Source of the DNA: Veillonella sp. VA142
Lineage (GTDB): Bacteria; Bacillota; Negativicutes; Veillonellales; Veillonellaceae
NCBI RefSeq assembly: GCF_003992135.1
Contig: NZ_RQVN01000007.1
Location: forward strand, 1 to 64,000
DNA: 64,000 bases
Reading direction: 5' to 3'
Positions within the stretch are counted from its first letter, which is position 1. Each line of letters starts with the position of its first letter. The notes beneath the pieces are model-generated. The model saw nothing but the letters and a program-made list of their open reading frames with translations, did no database searches and was not told the DNA's origin. The position numbers were made by a program, and so were the translations under genes. This document shows positions 3,183 through 37,126 of this stretch, one piece after another.

Positions 3183-6100
3183 CTATTTAAGGCCTTTATA
3201 TAGCATTTGTGCGTATTCATAACGGGTCATTTGTTTATCGCCTTTAAATTCGCCATCTGGGTATCCATCTAAGACATCATTGCCATGTAATGTTTCTACG
3301 GCTTCGCTAGCCCAATGATTTTTAGGCACGTCAGGGAAAGAAGCTCGTTTAGGTGAAAGTCTAGTAGATAATTTAGATAATTGCTCTTTCAATTGATTCA
3401 ATTGATTTTGTAAGTTGTCATTTTTCTTGCGAAGTTCATTGACTTCTCCTTTGGTAATTTTTTTATAATCAGAGCCAGAACCAATTTTAAAAGATAAGCC
3501 AGCGTTCCATGCCCGATCATTAGGACTAATAGTACTTGCTAAGGAAAGCATAATATTTTCATTTGGTCTTACAAATCCACCGAATGCGGTAGCTTTCGCA
3601 CCGTTATATTGGCCATGAGAAACAGCAAAAGATACTTTATTGGATTCATCAAAATCTAATGGATGTAACGCAGCTAATGCGGATGCCGTAGCAGTACCTA
3701 CATTAATATCTTTTGTTAGTTTTTGTTCCAATCCTTGGGATTGTGTTTGTAACGTATCCATATTCACAACAGAAGTAGGATCATTAGGGTTTGTTACAAC
3801 ACCAGTAATATCACGGAGAATACTGTTTCCATGTTCATCGGTACCACGGAAATCTACATGAGTTGCTGTACCAGCTCTATCAACAGTCACTGTTTTACCA
3901 TCTGTTTTAATAAGCCCTTTTGGTGAGTAATTTTGAATGGCTTCATATACGGATTTACCATTGACGAGACCATTAGAAGATTCACCTTGGCCAACAGTGC
4001 CAGTACCTAACTTAGCACTCCATTCTTTTACATTTTCGGCGGTTAAATTAGATGCATTAGTGTTAGCTTTAGAAGTGAGAGTAGATGGATCAATTTGAAC
4101 ATTAGCTAATGCAGTATGTAAGGTATCACCTGTAATTAATCCTTTATCTCCAGCTTTGGCAGTGCCAGTGCCTAATTTTTCGCTCCATTTTTTAGCATCC
4201 TCAGTAGAGATATTGGAAGCATCCTTATTGGCTTTAGTAGCTAACTTAGTATCTACAGCATTGGATAATTCAGTGATTTTAGGGGCAATAGCACCTGTGA
4301 TAGCATCGTTAGATACATTTACCTTATAGATAGTAGAATTACCGTCTGTACGGCTTTCTACGGAAGTATTAGTACCATTTTCTAATTTAACAGCCTCTTT
4401 GGATAAGTTACGGATTACTGTTTTACCGTCATCGGTAATATTATCTAGTGCAGTATTGGCTTTGGCATTGAATTTAGAATCTAATCCATTATTGATGTTA
4501 GAAGTAGCAGTGTTGACAGCGTTAGTAATGGCTGTATTAACAGTGCCACCAGTTACTAATCCAGTGTTACCATCGGTAACAGTACCAGTGCCCAATTTTT
4601 CGCTCCATTTGGAAGCGTCCTCAGTAGAGAGGTTGGAAGCATCCTTATTCGCTTTAGTAGCGAGTTTAGTATCTACAGCATTGGATAATTCACTGATTTT
4701 AGGGGCAATAGCACCTGTGATGGCATCATTGGATACATTTACCTTATAGATAGTAGAATTACCGTCTACACGGCTTTCTACGGAAGTATTTGTACCATTT
4801 TCTAATTTCACTGCCTCTTTAGATAAATTACGGATCACAGTTTTACCATCATCTGTAATATTATCTAGTGCAGTATTAGCTTTGGCATTGAATTTAGAGT
4901 CTAAGCCATTATTGATATTAGAAGTAGCAGTGTTGACTGCATTAGTAATAGCAGTATTAACAGTGCCACCAGTAACAAGACCAGTGTTGCCATCGGTAAC
5001 GGTACCAGTACCTAACGCAGTTTGCCAAGCAGTTTTATTAATAGCACCATCTTTTGCTTCAGCGACTTTCCACAACTGATTACCATTAATTGCTTCTTTA
5101 GAATTTTCAGCAATTGTACCATCTGTTACATTCACTAATTTTCTAGTAGAAGTAGCAGAGCCGATAGATACTACATTATCTTCTGTAGCTGTACTATCTT
5201 TACCAAGCACAACAGAGTTATTAGCTTTAGTAGTCACGTTTGAACCTAATACAAATGTATTTGTTCCTACTGTATGAGTAGTCGTAGCATCACCAATAGT
5301 ATTATTATTACCGAATGCGTAGGAGTTATCTCCATAAATCGTATTCGGATCACCAAACGTACCTGCATTGTTACCGATAACGATATGGCCAACACCAACA
5401 GCAATAGATTTAGTACCTGTTACGGCAGAACTTTTACCAATAGAAATAGAATTTTCACCAGTGACAATAGTACCAGTACCGATAGCAATGGAATTAGACC
5501 CTGTAGATAAAGAGTTTGTGCCAATGGCCATAGCATTTTCACCTACATTAGTTAAATCATGTAGTGTTAATGCATTTTTAAGAGCAGTTAATCGTTCTTG
5601 ATTTTGTTGCAATTCTTGAGATTTAGCCGTCAATTGTCGCATTAATGCTTCATATTGTTCCATATACAACAAATCGGAAGCACTAGGATTAATACTTTCC
5701 CAGTTTGTTTTAGCCTGATCCGCAGAGGCTTTTAATGCTGCAATTTGCTTTTCCTTTTCAGCTACTGCATTTTTATTGATTTGTAATGCAGTTTCAAGGT
5801 CTGATGTTAGTTTGTTTGTTGTGATTTTATTTTTTTCTACAATATCTGTAATATTTAATTTTTCCCAATTTTTATAGTTTTCTTTCAACCCTTCAAGAAT
5901 TGGAGACAGATTATATGAAGTACCTAAAGCATTATATTCTTTTATTGCTACATTTTTTTTATCTAGCCAACTAGTATTATGAGTGTCTTCATATTGCTTT
6001 TGATAATATGTTATTTCAATACTTTTAACAAAATAGTCTATTTTTTTATCCATCTCTAAATAGAGTTTTTCTTTAAGTTCTTGTGTAAATAAAGGATTAT

Positions 6101-7202
6101 TATTGTTATTAAAATATTCTCTTAGAGTTTTTTTGAATTTAGGAGCTTGTTCTTTAGAACTATCCCATTCTTCTTTTGTTGATAAATCTATGTTTATATT
6201 TTTTAAAGTAATGTCTTTCGTAGGCTTATCTTGTAACGTATTATCCAAATTGAATGCATCTTTAGATAAAGTTTTGTAGTTTCCGTAATTATTAAAGTCA
6301 AGGTGTCTGTTTCTAATTTCAATGCCTGTTATAATATTAAAAGCCATATTTATATTATATGGGCTTTTTATATTCATATTTCTTGAATAATCGTCACTAT
6401 CACTATACCTAAAGAAAGCAGCATACCATGATTTTGATAAAATTATTTGATTATTTCTCAAATCTCCCATTGCCTTATAATGAGCTTTAATGTACTCTTT
6501 ATAGAAGCTATCTAATGGTAAATTTAGAGTACTTCCTTCTTCGGTCATACGCTTCAGATTTGTAGCAGCAGCAGTTAATCCATCTTCAGAGTTAATATCT
6601 ACACCACCAAGACGATTGACAGCCCCAAGACGATTATTTAAATCATCTAGTTTAGCTTGAGCATTGCGAAGGAACTCAGCGGAGTTAGCTACTTCTGTAG
6701 ACCATGCATTTTGTTTGTTTAAATAGTCTTGATGTGCTTTTTCTTTAGCTAGGCGAACTTGCTTAACACGTTCACCAGCTTCAATTGTTTTGGCTTGTTC
6801 AGCACGGATTTTTTGGATTTCATTAGCTAAGTTAGTAACAGCATTTTGAGCAGTGGAGATTTCAGCTAATCTCTGTCTATTTTCGTTTAATTTACCAGTG
6901 ATGGTATCTTTTGTTTCATTCCCACCAGTGGCCACTGCATTATTACCTACAGCCAGTGATCCAGTACCAGTCGCAATAGAACCATTACCTCTAGCTCTTG
7001 CATTAGATCCTAACTCAAGACCAGAATCTTCTTTAATATTGTTGATAGTTATATCCCAATAGTTATTGGTTACACCATTCTCTGTAGTTGTGGTAGTAGG
7101 TGTAGTAGCAGTAGCAGAATCTGCTGCATAGCCAATATGACCCACACAGGCAAGTGCTACTAATGTGGATAATGCTAATTGTTTTTTCTTAAATTGTTTC
7201 AT
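3183..7202 (-). CDS. Trimeric autotransporter adhesin with YadA anchor and C-terminal SLH domain
   Basis: The 1339-residue protein has a signal peptide (residues 1-26, cut near GYA-AD). A short YadA-like head with S/N-x-A-x-G repeats follows at about 50-95, then a long alpha-helical and coiled-coil part (95-555), a second head (555-690) and a stalk with two near-identical 140-residue repeats. A YadA-type membrane anchor lies at about 1165-1246, a coiled coil at 1247-1288 and one SLH domain at 1289-1339 (FPDVPKNHWASEAV ... MTRYEYAQMLYKG). Family knowledge: the anchor trimerises into an outer-membrane barrel that exposes the heads. Inference: the SLH end faces the periplasm and grips peptidoglycan, as in SLH-bearing outer-membrane proteins of Negativicutes. 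Its place directly downstream of virB4 suggests it aids cell contact during transfer. The codons for residues about 220-470 are markedly more A+T-rich than the flanks, as if inserted. Confidence 0.9.
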   Translation of the reverse strand: MKQFKKKQLALSTLVALACVGHIGYAADSATATTPTTTTTENGVTNNYWDITINNIKEDSGLELGSNARARGNGSIATGTGSLAVGNNAVATGGNETKDTITGKLNENRQRLAEISTAQNAVTNLANEIQKIRAEQAKTIEAGERVKQVRLAKEKAHQDYLNKQNAWSTEVANSAEFLRNAQAKLDDLNNRLGAVNRLGGVDINSEDGLTAAATNLKRMTEEGSTLNLPLDSFYKEYIKAHYKAMGDLRNNQIILSKSWYAAFFRYSDSDDYSRNMNIKSPYNINMAFNIITGIEIRNRHLDFNNYGNYKTLSKDAFNLDNTLQDKPTKDITLKNINIDLSTKEEWDSSKEQAPKFKKTLREYFNNNNNPLFTQELKEKLYLEMDKKIDYFVKSIEITYYQKQYEDTHNTSWLDKKNVAIKEYNALGTSYNLSPILEGLKENYKNWEKLNITDIVEKNKITTNKLTSDLETALQINKNAVAEKEKQIAALKASADQAKTNWESINPSASDLLYMEQYEALMRQLTAKSQELQQNQERLTALKNALTLHDLTNVGENAMAIGTNSLSTGSNSIAIGTGTIVTGENSISIGKSSAVTGTKSIAVGVGHIVIGNNAGTFGDPNTIYGDNSYAFGNNNTIGDATTTHTVGTNTFVLGSNVTTKANNSVVLGKDSTATEDNVVSIGSATSTRKLVNVTDGTIAENSKEAINGNQLWKVAEAKDGAINKTAWQTALGTGTVTDGNTGLVTGGTVNTAITNAVNTATSNINNGLDSKFNAKANTALDNITDDGKTVIRNLSKEAVKLENGTNTSVESRVDGNSTIYKVNVSNDAITGAIAPKISELSNAVDTKLATKANKDASNLSTEDASKWSEKLGTGTVTDGNTGLVTGGTVNTAITNAVNTATSNINNGLDSKFNAKANTALDNITDDGKTVIRNLSKEAVKLENGTNTSVESRTDGNSTIYKVNVSNDAITGAIAPKITELSNAVDTKLATKANKDASNISTEDAKKWSEKLGTGTAKAGDKGLITGDTLHTALANVQIDPSTLTSKANTNASNLTAENVKEWSAKLGTGTVGQGESSNGLVNGKSVYEAIQNYSPKGLIKTDGKTVTVDRAGTATHVDFRGTDEHGNSILRDITGVVTNPNDPTSVVNMDTLQTQSQGLEQKLTKDINVGTATASALAALHPLDFDESNKVSFAVSHGQYNGAKATAFGGFVRPNENIMLSLASTISPNDRAWNAGLSFKIGSGSDYKKITKGEVNELRKKNDNLQNQLNQLKEQLSKLSTRLSPKRASFPDVPKNHWASEAVETLHGNDVLDGYPDGEFKGDKQMTRYEYAQMLYKGLK
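4171..5010 (-). repeat. Two tandem 420-bp repeats in the adhesin stalk
   Basis: Units 4171-4590 and 4591-5010 match almost base for base and keep an exact 420-bp (140-codon) period. Each encodes the KLGTGTVTDGNTGLVTGG ... KANKDASN module of the stalk. A diverged partial third unit lies on the other side (near 3990-4170). In-frame repeats of this kind can recombine and change stalk length. Confidence 0.85.
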
Positions 7203-31720: not shown

Positions 31721-32908
31721 TTAAGCTCCTTTTCGTGCAACTTCTAATTTAGAAACAAGTTCGTCCACATCAATACCGTGAATTTGAGCGGCTTGCCATA
31801 ATGGTTCTCCTGTGGAGGAAGGGCAGCCTAGACAACCCATGCCAATGGATTGTAAAGTAGGAATTGTTTGTGGGTACATATCTATAATATCACGAATAAT
31901 GGAATCTTTTGTAATAGCAATTTCAGATACATTGCGACCTGCGTTTAGTTTTGCCACTAATGCATCGATATCCATGCCGTGAATATTAGCGGCTTGCCAT
32001 AGAGGTTCCCCTGTGGAAGAAGGACAGCCAAGGCATCCCATCCCCATGGACTGTAAAATTGGAATTAACTCTGGGTATACCTCGACGATATGACGAACGA
32101 TCGTATCTTTTGTAATCAGTTGACCTGGTGAAAGTGGGGTGGCCCCTTTGTCGTTAGCAGGTGCAGCAGCTTCTGCAAGACCTGCATTGCCTTGTCCTGG
32201 TAATTTAACTACTGGTTCTGCAGAGGCTTTCGGAGCGGTTTCTGCAGTATTCACTGTGTCTAATACAGCAGCTCGGAATGCATCGAGACCTATACGGTCA
32301 ATGAACTGGCCCATACGCTCAATTTGCGCATTTTCTTTGTAGTATGTAATCATACGATCGATAATTGTAAGTACTTCTTCTTCGGTAGCTACTTCTGTGA
32401 TTAAGTCACCTAACCGTGGATGAGCACCAGCGCTACCACCTGCATAGATTTGCCAACCTTGATCATTGCCGATAACGCCGATATCTTTTGTGATGGCTTC
32501 AGAGCAAGAGTTAGGACAACCAGACACACCAATTTTCATTTTAGATGGCATTTCTTTAGAGATGTATTTTCGCTCCAATTGCATGCCTAAGTGTACGCTG
32601 TCTTGTTTAGCTCGTTTACAGAATGTCGTGCCAGGGCAGACTTTCACAGAACGAACACGATTGGACACAGTGTGCGCTGGTTCCAGGCCGAGCATAGCCC
32701 ACGCTTTGTCCACATCTTCTGCGTTTAGGTTCGTAATCATGATGCGTTGAGCACCCGTAATTTTCAAAGTTGCGTGGAATGTGTTTGCCACGTCGATAAA
32801 TTTTTGTAACATTTGAGGTTGTACGAAACCACCAGGAATCCGAGGGGTAATCGCATAGGTACGTTTTCCGTTTCGGATACGTTGTAAATTGCCTGCCACT
32901 TGTGCCAT
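31721..32908 (-). CDS. Siroheme/4Fe-4S nitrite-sulfite reductase-type protein with two DUF1858 domains
   Basis: Residues about 10-75 match the nitrite/sulfite reductase ferredoxin-like half domain. Cys91 and Cys97 (CPGTTFC) with Cys131 and Cys135 (GCPNSCSE) form the [4Fe-4S]-siroheme binding set. After an alanine/proline linker, two DUF1858 domains (about 263-325 and 331-393) each contain GMGCLGCPSSTGEPLWQAA. Only one half-repeat of the classical reductase is present, as in short assimilatory- or anaerobic-type enzymes. Siroheme could come from the sirC and cobA-hemD genes in this window. The electron acceptor is uncertain. Confidence 0.82.
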   Translation of the reverse strand: MAQVAGNLQRIRNGKRTYAITPRIPGGFVQPQMLQKFIDVANTFHATLKITGAQRIMITNLNAEDVDKAWAMLGLEPAHTVSNRVRSVKVCPGTTFCKRAKQDSVHLGMQLERKYISKEMPSKMKIGVSGCPNSCSEAITKDIGVIGNDQGWQIYAGGSAGAHPRLGDLITEVATEEEVLTIIDRMITYYKENAQIERMGQFIDRIGLDAFRAAVLDTVNTAETAPKASAEPVVKLPGQGNAGLAEAAAPANDKGATPLSPGQLITKDTIVRHIVEVYPELIPILQSMGMGCLGCPSSTGEPLWQAANIHGMDIDALVAKLNAGRNVSEIAITKDSIIRDIIDMYPQTIPTLQSIGMGCLGCPSSTGEPLWQAAQIHGIDVDELVSKLEVARKGA

Positions 32909-33046
32909 GTGTATCTCCTTATCTTTGGGTGTTTGTTGTAAGTTTTATTATTATAACGTATTAATTACTATATATGACTAGGCGAAAGCCTATGTTATTA
33001 GTATACTATAAGAAGTGGTTTTTGTATGTAGCTGAAGCAACGAATT

Positions 33047-33330
33047 TTATTCACAAACTATACACGGCTTATACACGGAAAATTTTAAGTTACACACAGA
33101 ATTATCCACACGAAGTGATTAAGTTAAGACAAAAATAAAAGTATATTTAAGGTGTCCTTGGATTACACACAAAGTATACACAAGATAATCACATAGTTAT
33201 ACACATATTAAAGTTTGCTAGATAGATAGCTTAAAGGTTACACACAATATAGACACAAGATAGTCACATGGTTATCCACATAATAGTGTATATTTATCTT
33301 GATATATATTATATATTAATCTAGTTGTAA
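33047..33330 (+). other. DnaA-box cluster with adjoining A+T-rich stretch (oriC-like)
   Basis: The 434-bp gap between divergent genes holds many DnaA-box-like 9-mers in one orientation: TTATTCACA (33047), TTATACACG (33069), TTATCCACA (33102), GTATACACA (33174), TTATACACA (33197) and TTATCCACA (33272). Looser TTACACACA copies lie at 33090, 33163 and 33238. A strongly A+T-rich segment with TATATATTATATATT follows (33281-33330) and could unwind. This is the layout of a bacterial oriC, or of a DnaA-titrating or DnaA-regulated site. dnaA itself is not in the window. Confidence 0.65.
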
Positions 33331-33342
33331 ATAAGGGAATTT

Positions 33343-34500
33343 ATGAAAGTATTATATGAAAATGTACAGGTTGCTACCTTTGTAGAGCGGCCTAACCGAT
33401 TTGTGGTTCATGTGGAGTTACATGGGCAACTAGTAGCAGCCCACTTGCCAAATCCAGGTCGTATGTGGGAGCTCCTCTTTGTAGGGGTAAAGATGTATGT
33501 GGTGCATCATCCAAAAGAAGGTGCAAAAACGCAATATCGTGTGATCGGTATTGAACGTGATGGTGTGCCCATCATGTTAGATACTAATTATTGTAATGAC
33601 ATGGCGGAGTACATGATTGAGGAACAACTCATCCCAGGATGGGAAGAGTGGCGTGTGCTACGACGGGAGTATACAGTGGGGCATAGTAGATTTGATTTAC
33701 TCCTTACCAATGATAAGGAAGAACACTTTTTACTGGAAGTAAAATCCTGTACCTTATTTGGTGATCAAGGAGCGATGTTCCCTGATGCTGTGACAGAGCG
33801 TGGCAGAAAACATTTGCTACATTTGCAAGAATTGCAACAAGAGGGATATCGTACGGGGATTCTATTCTTGGTGCAGTGGGAACGAGCACTGTGGTTCTCC
33901 CCGGACTTTCACACGGATTTGGAATTTACCAAGACATTTATTGAGGTGGAGCCACAGTTAGACTGGAAGGCTATGGCGTTGCAGTGGACACCAGAGTTTA
34001 CTAAACCTACAGTAGTGCGTGAGTGCTTGTACAATGATACAGCGGTGCAACGAGAAGCGGAGGACCGAGGGGATTACCTCATGGTCTTACAAGTAGAAGA
34101 GCCAGTGACTGTAACCATCGGCAGTAAGGGGGATATGCACTTTGAAGCGGGGTATTATATCTATGTAGGGTCAGCGAAGGCGAATTTAAAAAAGCGTATT
34201 GAACGTCATAAACGGAAGCGGAAACAAAAACATTGGCATTTAGATTATTTACGTAGTGTTAGTACCGTTGTGGCAGCTGTACCGATTCGCAGCTCCAGCG
34301 ATTTAGAATGTGAATTGGCAAAGGCTATGAAGGCCATCAGTACAGATGAGGTAAAAGGATTTGGCTGTAGCGATTGTCATTGTGAGTCCCACCTATTCAA
34401 GATGGATGTGAATCCTATCCATGATGAACGCTTTATGATCGATGTGGTGGAACAGTTCCGTATGAATCGATTAAATGAGGCCATGCTAGCGGTGGAATGA
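33343..34500 (+). CDS. sfsA: SfsA nuclease-type protein fused to a DUF123 (GIY-YIG-like) domain
   Basis: The 385-residue protein is longer than ordinary SfsA (about 230-240). Residues 1-220 are SfsA: AHLPNPGRMWELL, SRFDLLLTN, EVKSCTLFG and FPDAVTERGRKHLLHLQEL, with the PD-(D/E)xK-like Asp and EVK residues. Residues about 240-365 match DUF123, with FEAGYYIYVGSAKANLKKRI and KHWHLDYLRS, a GIY-YIG-like fold. Both parts suggest nucleic-acid binding or cleavage. It follows the DnaA-box cluster and precedes gyrA. Confidence 0.88.
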   Translation: MKVLYENVQVATFVERPNRFVVHVELHGQLVAAHLPNPGRMWELLFVGVKMYVVHHPKEGAKTQYRVIGIERDGVPIMLDTNYCNDMAEYMIEEQLIPGWEEWRVLRREYTVGHSRFDLLLTNDKEEHFLLEVKSCTLFGDQGAMFPDAVTERGRKHLLHLQELQQEGYRTGILFLVQWERALWFSPDFHTDLEFTKTFIEVEPQLDWKAMALQWTPEFTKPTVVRECLYNDTAVQREAEDRGDYLMVLQVEEPVTVTIGSKGDMHFEAGYYIYVGSAKANLKKRIERHKRKRKQKHWHLDYLRSVSTVVAAVPIRSSSDLECELAKAMKAISTDEVKGFGCSDCHCESHLFKMDVNPIHDERFMIDVVEQFRMNRLNEAMLAVE

Positions 34501-34604
34501 TAAAATGGTATGAATATTTATGCGATATATACTTTTACAGACAATTAAATTTGGGTATATGGAAACTTTTATGTAAAAAGATAGAAAAAAAGTGCATAAA
34601 ATGG

Positions 34605-34610
34605 TATAAT
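34605..34610 (+). promoter_or_regulatory. Extended -10 of gyrA
   Basis: TGGTATAAT (TATAAT at 34605-34610) lies about 40 bp upstream of the gyrA start. No clear -35 is seen, which an extended -10 can tolerate. Confidence 0.55.
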
Positions 34611-34651: not shown

Positions 34652-37126
34652 ATGGAGGAAAAGGCTTGGAGCCATGGCAAAATTTTGCCGGTCCAAATCG
34701 ATAAAGAAATGCGCAGCTCTTACATCGATTACGCTATGAGCGTTATCGTTATGCGTGCCCTTCCAGATGTGCGTGATGGGTTGAAACCTGTACACCGTCG
34801 TATTCTATATGCGATGCATGAAACAGGCATGACACCGTCGAAACCGTACAAAAAATCGGCTCGTATCGTCGGTGACGTACTTGGTAAATACCATCCACAT
34901 GGTGATAGCTCTGTGTACGACGCAACGGTACGTTTAGCCCAAGATTTTAATACAAGATATCCGCTTGTGGATGGACATGGTAACTTTGGTTCCATTGACG
35001 GCGACTCAGCGGCGGCCATGCGGTATACAGAAGTTCGTATGTCTCGTATCGCTACAGAAATGCTAGCAGATATCGAGAAGAAAACAGTAGACTTTATGCC
35101 GAACTATGACGAATCTTTGGAAGAACCAACTGTACTTCCGGCAAAGATTCCGAACTTATTAATCAATGGTTCTGCCGGCATTGCCGTGGGGATGGCGACA
35201 AATATTCCGCCACATAACTTAGGAGAAGTGGTAGATGGTCTCGTAATGCTTATCGATGATCCAGAGGTGGATGTGAACCAATTGATGACGGCCATTAAAG
35301 GGCCAGACTTCCCGACAGGGGCGTCTATTCTTGGTCGTGAGGGCATAAAAAAAGCCTACGCCACAGGTCGTGGTAGTATTAAAATGCGTGCGAAAGCGCA
35401 TATTGAGGCTATGACGAAAGGCAAACATCGCATCGTGGTCACAGAAATTCCGTATCAAGTGAATAAAGCGCGCTTAATTGCAACCATTGCTGATTTAAGT
35501 CGTGATAAAGTGGTGGACGGCATTACAGCCCTTCGTGATGAAAGTGACCGTCGTGGTCTTCGTATCGTCATCGAATTGCGTGCGGACGTGCAACCAGATA
35601 TCGTGTTGAATAAACTATATAAACACACACAATTGCAAGATACATTTGGTGTGATTATGTTGGCGCTAGTAAAAGGACATCCAAAAGTATTGACTTTGAA
35701 AGAAGTACTAGGTCATTACTTAACGCACCGCCAAGAAGTCATCGTACGCCGTACAGAATTCGACTTGGCAAAAGCAGAAGCTCGTGCTCATGTATTGGAA
35801 GGCTTGTTGATTGCTTTAGATCACATTGATGAAGTCATCCACACCATCCGCAGCTCTCAAACCACAGATATTGCTCGCACAGCTTTGATTGAAAAGTTCA
35901 ACCTTACAGAAATTCAAGCAAATGCTATCTTAGATATGCGCTTAGCTCGTTTAACAGGTTTGGAACGTGAAAAAATCGAAGAAGAACATGCAGCATTATT
36001 AGTGTTGATTGCGGATTTGAAAGCAATCCTAGCATCTGATGAGCGTCAACGTGAGATCATCAAAGAAGAGTTAATCGCTATGAAAGAAAAATATGGTGAT
36101 AAACGTCGTAGTGAAATCACTATCGATACGTCTGACTTTGATGTAGAAGATTTAATTGCTGACGAAGAAATGGTCATCACTTTAACTCGTCAAGGTTATA
36201 TTAAACGCATGAATGCCAATGTATACCGTAATCAACATAAAGGTGGCGTAGGCGTTGTGGGTATGAAAACGAAAGAAGACGATTATGTGGCACAAATTAT
36301 GCATGTGCGCACGCATAATACACTATTATTCTTCACATCCACAGGTCGTGCATACCGCTTGAAAGCTTACGAAGTGCCAGAAGCATCTAGCCGTAACTCT
36401 CGTGGTACAGCCATCATCAACGTATTGCCTCTTAATGTAGGGGAAACAGTGACGAATATGATCGACTTAGAACGTATTTCTAGCGATGTAAACTTGTTCA
36501 TGGTTACCAAACAGGGCGTGGTGAAACGTACATCTATCGATGAGTACCGCAACATTCGCCGTGGTGGCTTGAATGCAGTGGCATTGGACGAAGGAGATCA
36601 ATTGATCTCTGTGGGCTTGACCTATGGCAACCAAGATGTATTGCTAGGTACGAAAAAAGGGATGGCTATTCGTTTCCATGAAGTAGATGTACGTTTAATG
36701 AAGCGTGCTGCTCGTGGCGTGAAAGGTATCAACCTAAACGCTGGCGATGAAGTCGTAGGTGCTAGCATCATTCATGGTACTGGCGAAGAATGCCAAGTCT
36801 TCACCATCAGTGAAGAAGGGTATGGCAAACGCAATGTAGAAAGCTCCTATACAGTGCAAAAACGTGGTGGTAAAGGAACGAAGAACTTTAAAATCACCGA
36901 TAAAACAGGTGAAGTAGTAGCCGTAGAAATCGTGAATGACAATGATGAAATGATGCTCATTTCTGAACAAGGTAAGATCATTCGCTTTGATGTGAATGAT
37001 ATTGCTGTGAAGAAAAGTAAAGCTATTTCTGGCGTGAAAACACAAAACTTAGACGAAGGAGATAAAATTGCCTCTGTGGCGGTAATCTCTGGGGAAGAGT
37101 TAAAAGAAGACGAAAGCTTATTTTAA
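34652..37126 (+). CDS. gyrA: DNA gyrase subunit A
   Basis: The 824-residue protein has the breakage-reunion domain with catalytic Tyr125 ([11 protein letters not shown]) and the [17 protein letters not shown] region typical of GyrA. The C-terminal beta-pinwheel carries a GyrA-box-like QKRGGKG, which favours GyrA over ParC. The quinolone-resistance region reads [10 protein letters not shown], with Ser86 and Asp90 at the positions of E. coli Ser83 and Asp87, so the common resistance substitutions are absent. gyrB is not adjacent. GAGGTGATACA precedes the ATG. Confidence 0.95.

Follow-up and report, generated by a model that had tools for sequence, protein, structure and literature searches.

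A DnaA-box cluster upstream of sfsA in Veillonella, an off-origin site and putative DnaA sink

The gap upstream of sfsA

The window, that is the whole stretch of 64,000 nucleotides that was analysed, is contig C7 of the 65-contig, 1.97-Mb genome of Veillonella sp. VA142. The cluster studied here sits between a divergent reductase-like gene and the sfsA-gyrA pair, and nearly all long open reading frames to its right point rightward, as the sequence-only reading had noted. The features of this region are as follows:

31721-32908, minus strand: nitrite/sulphite-reductase-like gene with two DUF1858 stretches, divergent from the cluster
32974-33046, plus strand: near-invariant block left of the cluster, about 75 bp, in 6 genomes
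33047-33110, plus strand: box group 1, boxes at 33047, 33058, 33069, 33090 and 33102 (steps 11, 11, 21, 12)
33163-33205, plus strand: four-box module 2, boxes at 33163, 33174, 33185 and 33197 (steps 11, 11, 12)
33238-33280, plus strand: four-box module 3, boxes at 33238, 33249, 33260 and 33272 (steps 11, 11, 12)
33298-33324, no strand: A+T-rich imperfect inverted repeat between cluster and sfsA, read by eye
33343-34500, plus strand: sfsA, with a fused C-terminal DUF123 domain and a weak GIY-YIG match below cut-off
34652-37126, plus strand: gyrA

Further to the left, genes for a TrbE/VirB4-like ATPase, a MobA/MobL relaxase, a phage replisome organiser, a DnaC-like loader and a tyrosine recombinase occupy about 7.9-28.2 kb, a region that likely represents one or more integrated mobile elements. 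A large YadA/SLH adhesin gene lies at 3183-7202, and no tRNA genes were found in the window.

A mismatch scan detected 13 predicted DnaA boxes on the plus strand, all in one orientation, within the 234 bp at 33047-33280. Four match TTATNCACA exactly (TTATCCACA at 33102 and 33272, TTATACACA at 33197 and TTATTCACA at 33047), five carry one mismatch and four, at the 11-bp phase, carry two, which brings the total to 13. The one-orientation cluster within about 235 bp described by the sequence-only reading is borne out by the exact and one-mismatch boxes. Box starts are mostly 11 or 12 bp apart, with gaps of 2-3 bp between boxes, and at 10.5 bp per turn the 13 starts together span no more than 0.43 of a helical turn.

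The densest 240 bp of one strand in the window holds 9 boxes at up to one mismatch, as compared with maxima of 2-5 in 40 dinucleotide shuffles of the window, 0-5 in 2000 shuffles of the 434-bp gap, and at most 3 per 240 bp elsewhere in the window. Over its whole length the window carries 100 such boxes, against a mean of 101.3 expected by chance; since the overall frequency is not enriched, it is the clustering, and not the number of boxes, that is unusual. Genome-wide, exact TTATNCACA matches number 129 (78 for the reversed pattern), 4 of them in the cluster. Six of the seven close box pairs in this genome fall in the sfsA cluster, in oriC or in a further cluster beside a tRNA-Arg gene (reversed control, 1). 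The cluster is thus a dense group of predicted boxes outside oriC, beyond chance.

For comparison we used six same-genus genomes: this one and five Veillonella sp. strains (G001-G005, each counted once), its nearest relatives by SfsA (92-96% identity). In this genome, where a TATATATTATATATT stretch occupies 33303-33317, A+T makes up 83% of the 60 bp that follow the last box, as against 60-67% in four of the relatives and 75% in the fifth. The A+T-rich flank to which the sequence-only reading drew attention is therefore present here, but is largely a feature of this one genome. The inverted repeat at 33298-33324 is possibly a promoter or operator; a similar A+T-rich palindrome was seen by eye in most relatives, away from the cluster and nearer to sfsA.

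On the left, the near-invariant block contains a TAGGC-GAAA-GCCTA hairpin, and may be either a small ORF entering the first boxes or an RNA or DNA element. The ORF starting at ATG 32974 has its first 28 residues identical in 6/6 genomes, with three differing codons, all synonymous changes, and its lengths across the six are 54, 37, 28, 37, 50 and 37 aa. It has no Pfam match and, outside the genus, weak matches at best (best E 0.02). Comparison of the gap with known RNA families gave three matches, all far below the gathering score.

The chromosomal origin and its four-box module

The sequence-only reading had remarked that dnaA and dnaN are not nearby in the window, which is correct: dnaA lies on contig C23, followed by genes that we take, by eye from their translations, to be dnaN, recF and gyrB. 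The dnaA-dnaN gap on C23 carries boxes, then CTACTACTACGGCTACTACTT, then an A+T-rich stretch, with clear DnaA-trios at C23:13747. Such a layout of boxes, DnaA-trios and unwinding region is described, in the parts available, for C. difficile and B. subtilis (PMC7561715, PMC6669920).

GC skew, which the sequence-only reading had proposed as a check on its suggestion of a chromosomal origin at the cluster, was followed in G005 and G004, the same-genus genomes with dnaA and sfsA on one contig (V. parvula was used for skew analysis in PMC4070872, as seen in an excerpt). Binned at 2 kb, cumulative skew has its minimum at 58 kb in G005, where the trios are at 58.8 kb and the cluster at 91.4-91.7 kb, and in the 80-82 kb bin in G004, where the trios are at 81.4 kb and the cluster at 47.6-47.9 kb. 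The minimum thus lies at dnaA-dnaN, within 2 kb of the trios in both genomes, and no skew switch occurs at the cluster in either, the sign there being unchanged. In the complete genome of a sister genus (G008, genus g4), skew is positive in 10/10 samples from 0.1-1.0 Mb and negative in 10/10 samples from 1.1-2.0 Mb; close to the origin its sign changes at dnaA-dnaN, following some 15 kb of values near zero. The distance from trios to cluster is 32.6 kb in G005, 33.5 kb in G004 and 76 kb in G001, which places the cluster close to oriC; in the genome studied here the two loci are on separate contigs.

An ad hoc score for DnaA-trio runs reached 16.3 at oriC, and detected no run at the cluster (10.8 on the plus and 11.8 on the minus strand, against a shuffle mean of 11.89 and maximum of 15.5); the corresponding gaps of the relatives score 10.7-14.1. 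The cluster lies away from the rpmH-dnaA-dnaN location of the bipartite Firmicutes oriC, has no trios adjoining boxes and an A+T-rich element, and shows no skew switch, which in G005, G004 and G008 is at dnaA. Because the skew switch and the trios are at dnaA-dnaN, 32.6 and 33.5 kb away, and no trio run is found at the cluster, we reject the cluster as the chromosomal origin.

The cluster nevertheless resembles the dnaA-dnaN part of bipartite Firmicutes origins (incC of B. subtilis, oriC2 of C. difficile) in its close-set box arrays, and this genome's own dnaA-dnaN gap carries the 11/11/12 module of the cluster; unlike incC and oriC2, the cluster has no DnaA-trios, is away from dnaA and lacks a skew switch. 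We searched 60 genomes for four boxes spaced at 11, 11 and 12 bp, allowing up to 2 mismatches, and found 30 matches in 16 genomes (reversed control, 1). The pattern occurs with 0 mismatches at 33168-33205 in module 2 and at 33243-33280 in module 3. Eighteen of the 30 matches come from the 6 same-genus genomes, each of which has the module twice in its sfsA cluster and once between dnaA and dnaN. Another seven occur one per genome in 7 genomes of genus g2; among the four in which the location was assessed, the module is beside dnaA in three (G006, G011, G017) and 150 bp from trios in G013, the other three genomes being G009, G015 and G019. The remaining 5 are other two-mismatch matches. The oriC of genus g4 has no four-box module within 2 mismatches, which shows that the module is not shared by the whole family. 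Judged from sequence, the layout matched to oriC is the cluster's most distinctive trait.

Conservation and companion clusters

The cluster is found upstream of sfsA in 6/6 same-genus genomes. Among 45 other genomes with an sfsA match we examined 24 sfsA loci, and the cluster was present in 0/24, these loci carrying no more than 4 scattered one-mismatch boxes per 1000 bp (550 bp for one locus). A search of the 60 genomes with the cluster DNA gave strong matches, among the matches listed, in the six same-genus genomes only (E <=3e-63), the next match listed being the oriC array of G006 (E 2e-4).

In a six-way alignment, boxes are 93.7% identical, their CAC core 98.3% and the spacers 72.4%, and the difference between boxes and spacers (0.213) exceeds that for all 233 circular shifts of the box mask, narrowly (best shift 0.207). 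The boxes at 33047, 33090, 33102 and 33272 are identical in 6/6 genomes, and the cluster has a sole indel, of 11 bp and confined to G004, which falls within a spacer. The left flank (32909-33046) is 82.7% identical and the right flank 51.8%; since the left flank is better conserved than the spacers, selection is not on the boxes alone. We conclude that the array upstream of sfsA is a real, selected, off-origin cluster of predicted DnaA boxes.

A second cluster, with boxes in both orientations, occurs in this genome at C23:24318-24447 (L041:10318-10447), 10.6 kb from the trios, where it adjoins tRNA-Arg(CCT). All 5 of the other same-genus genomes share its boxes, and the tRNA gene was found beside it in 4/4 same-genus loci scanned (this genome, G001, G003 and G004). 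In genus g2, a box cluster lies beside tRNA-Arg(CCT) in 5/5 loci fetched (L221-L225), of 7 genomes, at 16.6-17.5 kb from the oriC-type four-box module; three of these loci had been chosen because the box-pair pattern matched there, and those of G017 and G011 were 20-kb stretches taken at the expected distance.

Genus g4 carries 6-8 same-strand boxes within 200 bp in 11/11 loci fetched (L141-L151), of 14 genomes, chosen because the box-pair pattern had matched there. These boxes, mostly 12 or 21 bp apart, are embedded within an open frame; for example, the G008 array (L141:853-988, about 1862.65-1862.79 kb on G008:C1) is in a gene for a pseudouridine synthase (PF00849). The boxes lie in frame, and their translation gives VD repeats located in a variable loop of the protein; in each of the six same-genus genomes the best homologue has a short loop there. 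The repeats are present in G027 and absent from G026. Across 7 close genomes the boxes of this array are 97.8% identical and the spacers 73.2%, with one of 135 circular shifts tying with the true mask. In the eight g4 genomes with dnaA and the array on one contig, the two are about 209-327 kb apart. The sister genera therefore have their off-origin clusters elsewhere, beside tRNA-Arg(CCT) or in frame in a pseudouridine-synthase gene, and not upstream of sfsA.

A putative DnaA sink and its alternatives

We read 33047-33280 as an off-origin, oriC-proximal DnaA-box cluster of the B. subtilis kind and a putative DnaA sink, with a probability of about 0.55. From the layout and position of the cluster we infer DnaA binding, cooperativity, titration and an effect on initiation timing, in the following way. 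DnaA would bind the strong TTATNCACA boxes first and then cooperatively fill their weaker neighbours, which lie at a spacing of 2-3 bp and face the same side of the helix, as at oriC. As there are no DnaA-trios to load onto, the oligomer could not open the DNA, which would stay closed, so that the cluster would tie up DnaA. Because it lies about 33 kb from oriC (in two relatives), the cluster would be copied shortly after every initiation; the sink would then double and free DnaA would fall at the time when re-initiation must be prevented. The absence of oriC's opening signals makes a sink likelier than a second origin. The layout also fits cooperative binding, since in vivo E. coli DnaA favours paired boxes with 2 or 3 bp between them, and adding a base pair strongly weakened its binding at the single site where this was tried (PMC11317965, in the part available).

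Off-origin DnaA-box clusters are already known from E. coli and B. subtilis. Those of B. subtilis (Okumura et al. 2012) are known to us through excerpts of two reviews (PMC5295017, PMC13220808), according to which deletion of six off-origin clusters leads to early initiation, and one cluster put back partly restores initiation timing (PMC5295017). Going by the same excerpts, the cluster studied here is like those of B. subtilis in having several boxes outside oriC in an oriC-proximal position, on a chromosome where dnaA is flanked by boxes on either side. Such clusters number six in B. subtilis; the Veillonella cluster has a single orientation throughout and repeats the oriC four-box module.

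Several observations count against a sink. Three are made by analogy, from the excerpts of PMC5295017 and PMC13220808: in B. subtilis the effect is strong only with all six clusters removed, clusters with significant roles are stated not to have been identified, and a tenfold increase in DnaA gives no over-initiation. The others are the restriction of the cluster to one genus, the lack of the four-box module at the oriC of genus g4, a left flank better conserved than the spacers, the 76 kb between cluster and oriC in G001, and the placement between divergent genes, for which regulation would be an equally natural role.

The strongest competing reading, although we consider it unlikely, is regulation of the neighbouring genes: DnaA bound here would repress or activate sfsA (with it perhaps gyrA), the divergent reductase gene or both, and so couple them to the replication cycle. 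In addition to the position between two divergent genes, a promoter-like match at 33162-33189 (9/12) overlaps module 2, and E. coli DnaA is a transcription regulator that binds closely spaced box pairs, as reported in the available part of PMC11317965. However, sfsA begins 62 bp after the last box here but 202, 206, 296, 296 and 345 bp after it in the five other genomes, and a separate promoter-like site for gyrA is present at 34582-34610 (10/12 with TG, a consensus match alone), 1.3 kb downstream of the cluster. Promoter-like matches are fewer than in shuffles (3 observed, mean 7.0), so neither of the two is strong evidence. From general knowledge, thirteen boxes seem more than regulation needs. 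The sequence-only reading had offered a DnaA-titration site controlling gyrA timing; titration is probably the best account of the cluster, and the gyrA part has no support of its own.

A site akin to datA or DARS, in which a DnaA complex would alter the nucleotide state of DnaA rather than titrate it only, is improbable. The cluster is like E. coli datA in being an off-origin group of dense boxes, near oriC, that could lower active DnaA, and the companion cluster adjoining a tRNA gene recalls datA, which lies downstream of glyV-X-Y (PMC10950094, in excerpt). On the other hand, datA acts via DnaA-ATP hydrolysis that requires IHF, according to the part of PMC5295017 available, unlike what is proposed for the cluster, whose boxes are in one orientation and in oriC-like modules.

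We disfavour still more strongly the view that DnaA fires the cluster as a second origin, be it cryptic or conditional; a second origin-like element was also raised by the sequence-only reading. The cluster has the module layout of oriC and, in this genome, an adjoining A+T-rich stretch, but neither a trio run by the ad hoc score nor, in G005 and G004, a skew switch, and four of the five relatives largely lack an A+T-rich flank beside the cluster. A remnant of a plasmid or phage origin, suggested by the conjugative or phage-like element left of the cluster, is rejected as equally far-fetched, with no plasmid or phage record matching the cluster at E 0.01 and the same place occupied in 6/6 genomes.

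Returning to the DnaA sink, we tentatively suggest, as a doubtful extension, that the cluster acts as a decoy origin, in which extra copies of oriC's four-box oligomerisation module sequester DnaA in oriC's own cooperative state and at its own threshold. With state and threshold in common, the cluster would compete with oriC as an equal and not as a sum of single boxes. Sinks would be rebuilt at different places across Veillonellaceae (the sfsA gap, tRNA-Arg, the pseudouridine-synthase gene), such that the function would persist while the locus turns over.

We found no published description of the cluster in titles and the beginnings of abstracts on DnaA boxes and origins in Veillonella or Negativicutes, a sample that leaves subscription papers mostly outside and is weak evidence of absence. 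The locus corrects an easy misreading, in that box density beside A+T-rich DNA is insufficient to call an origin. More broadly, a diderm Firmicutes lineage carries several off-origin clusters of predicted DnaA boxes, with boxes better conserved than spacers; one of these clusters shares its module with oriC, and the sister genera have different sites. These clusters would therefore offer a natural comparison for what makes a DnaA sink work, be it box number, phasing or distance from oriC.
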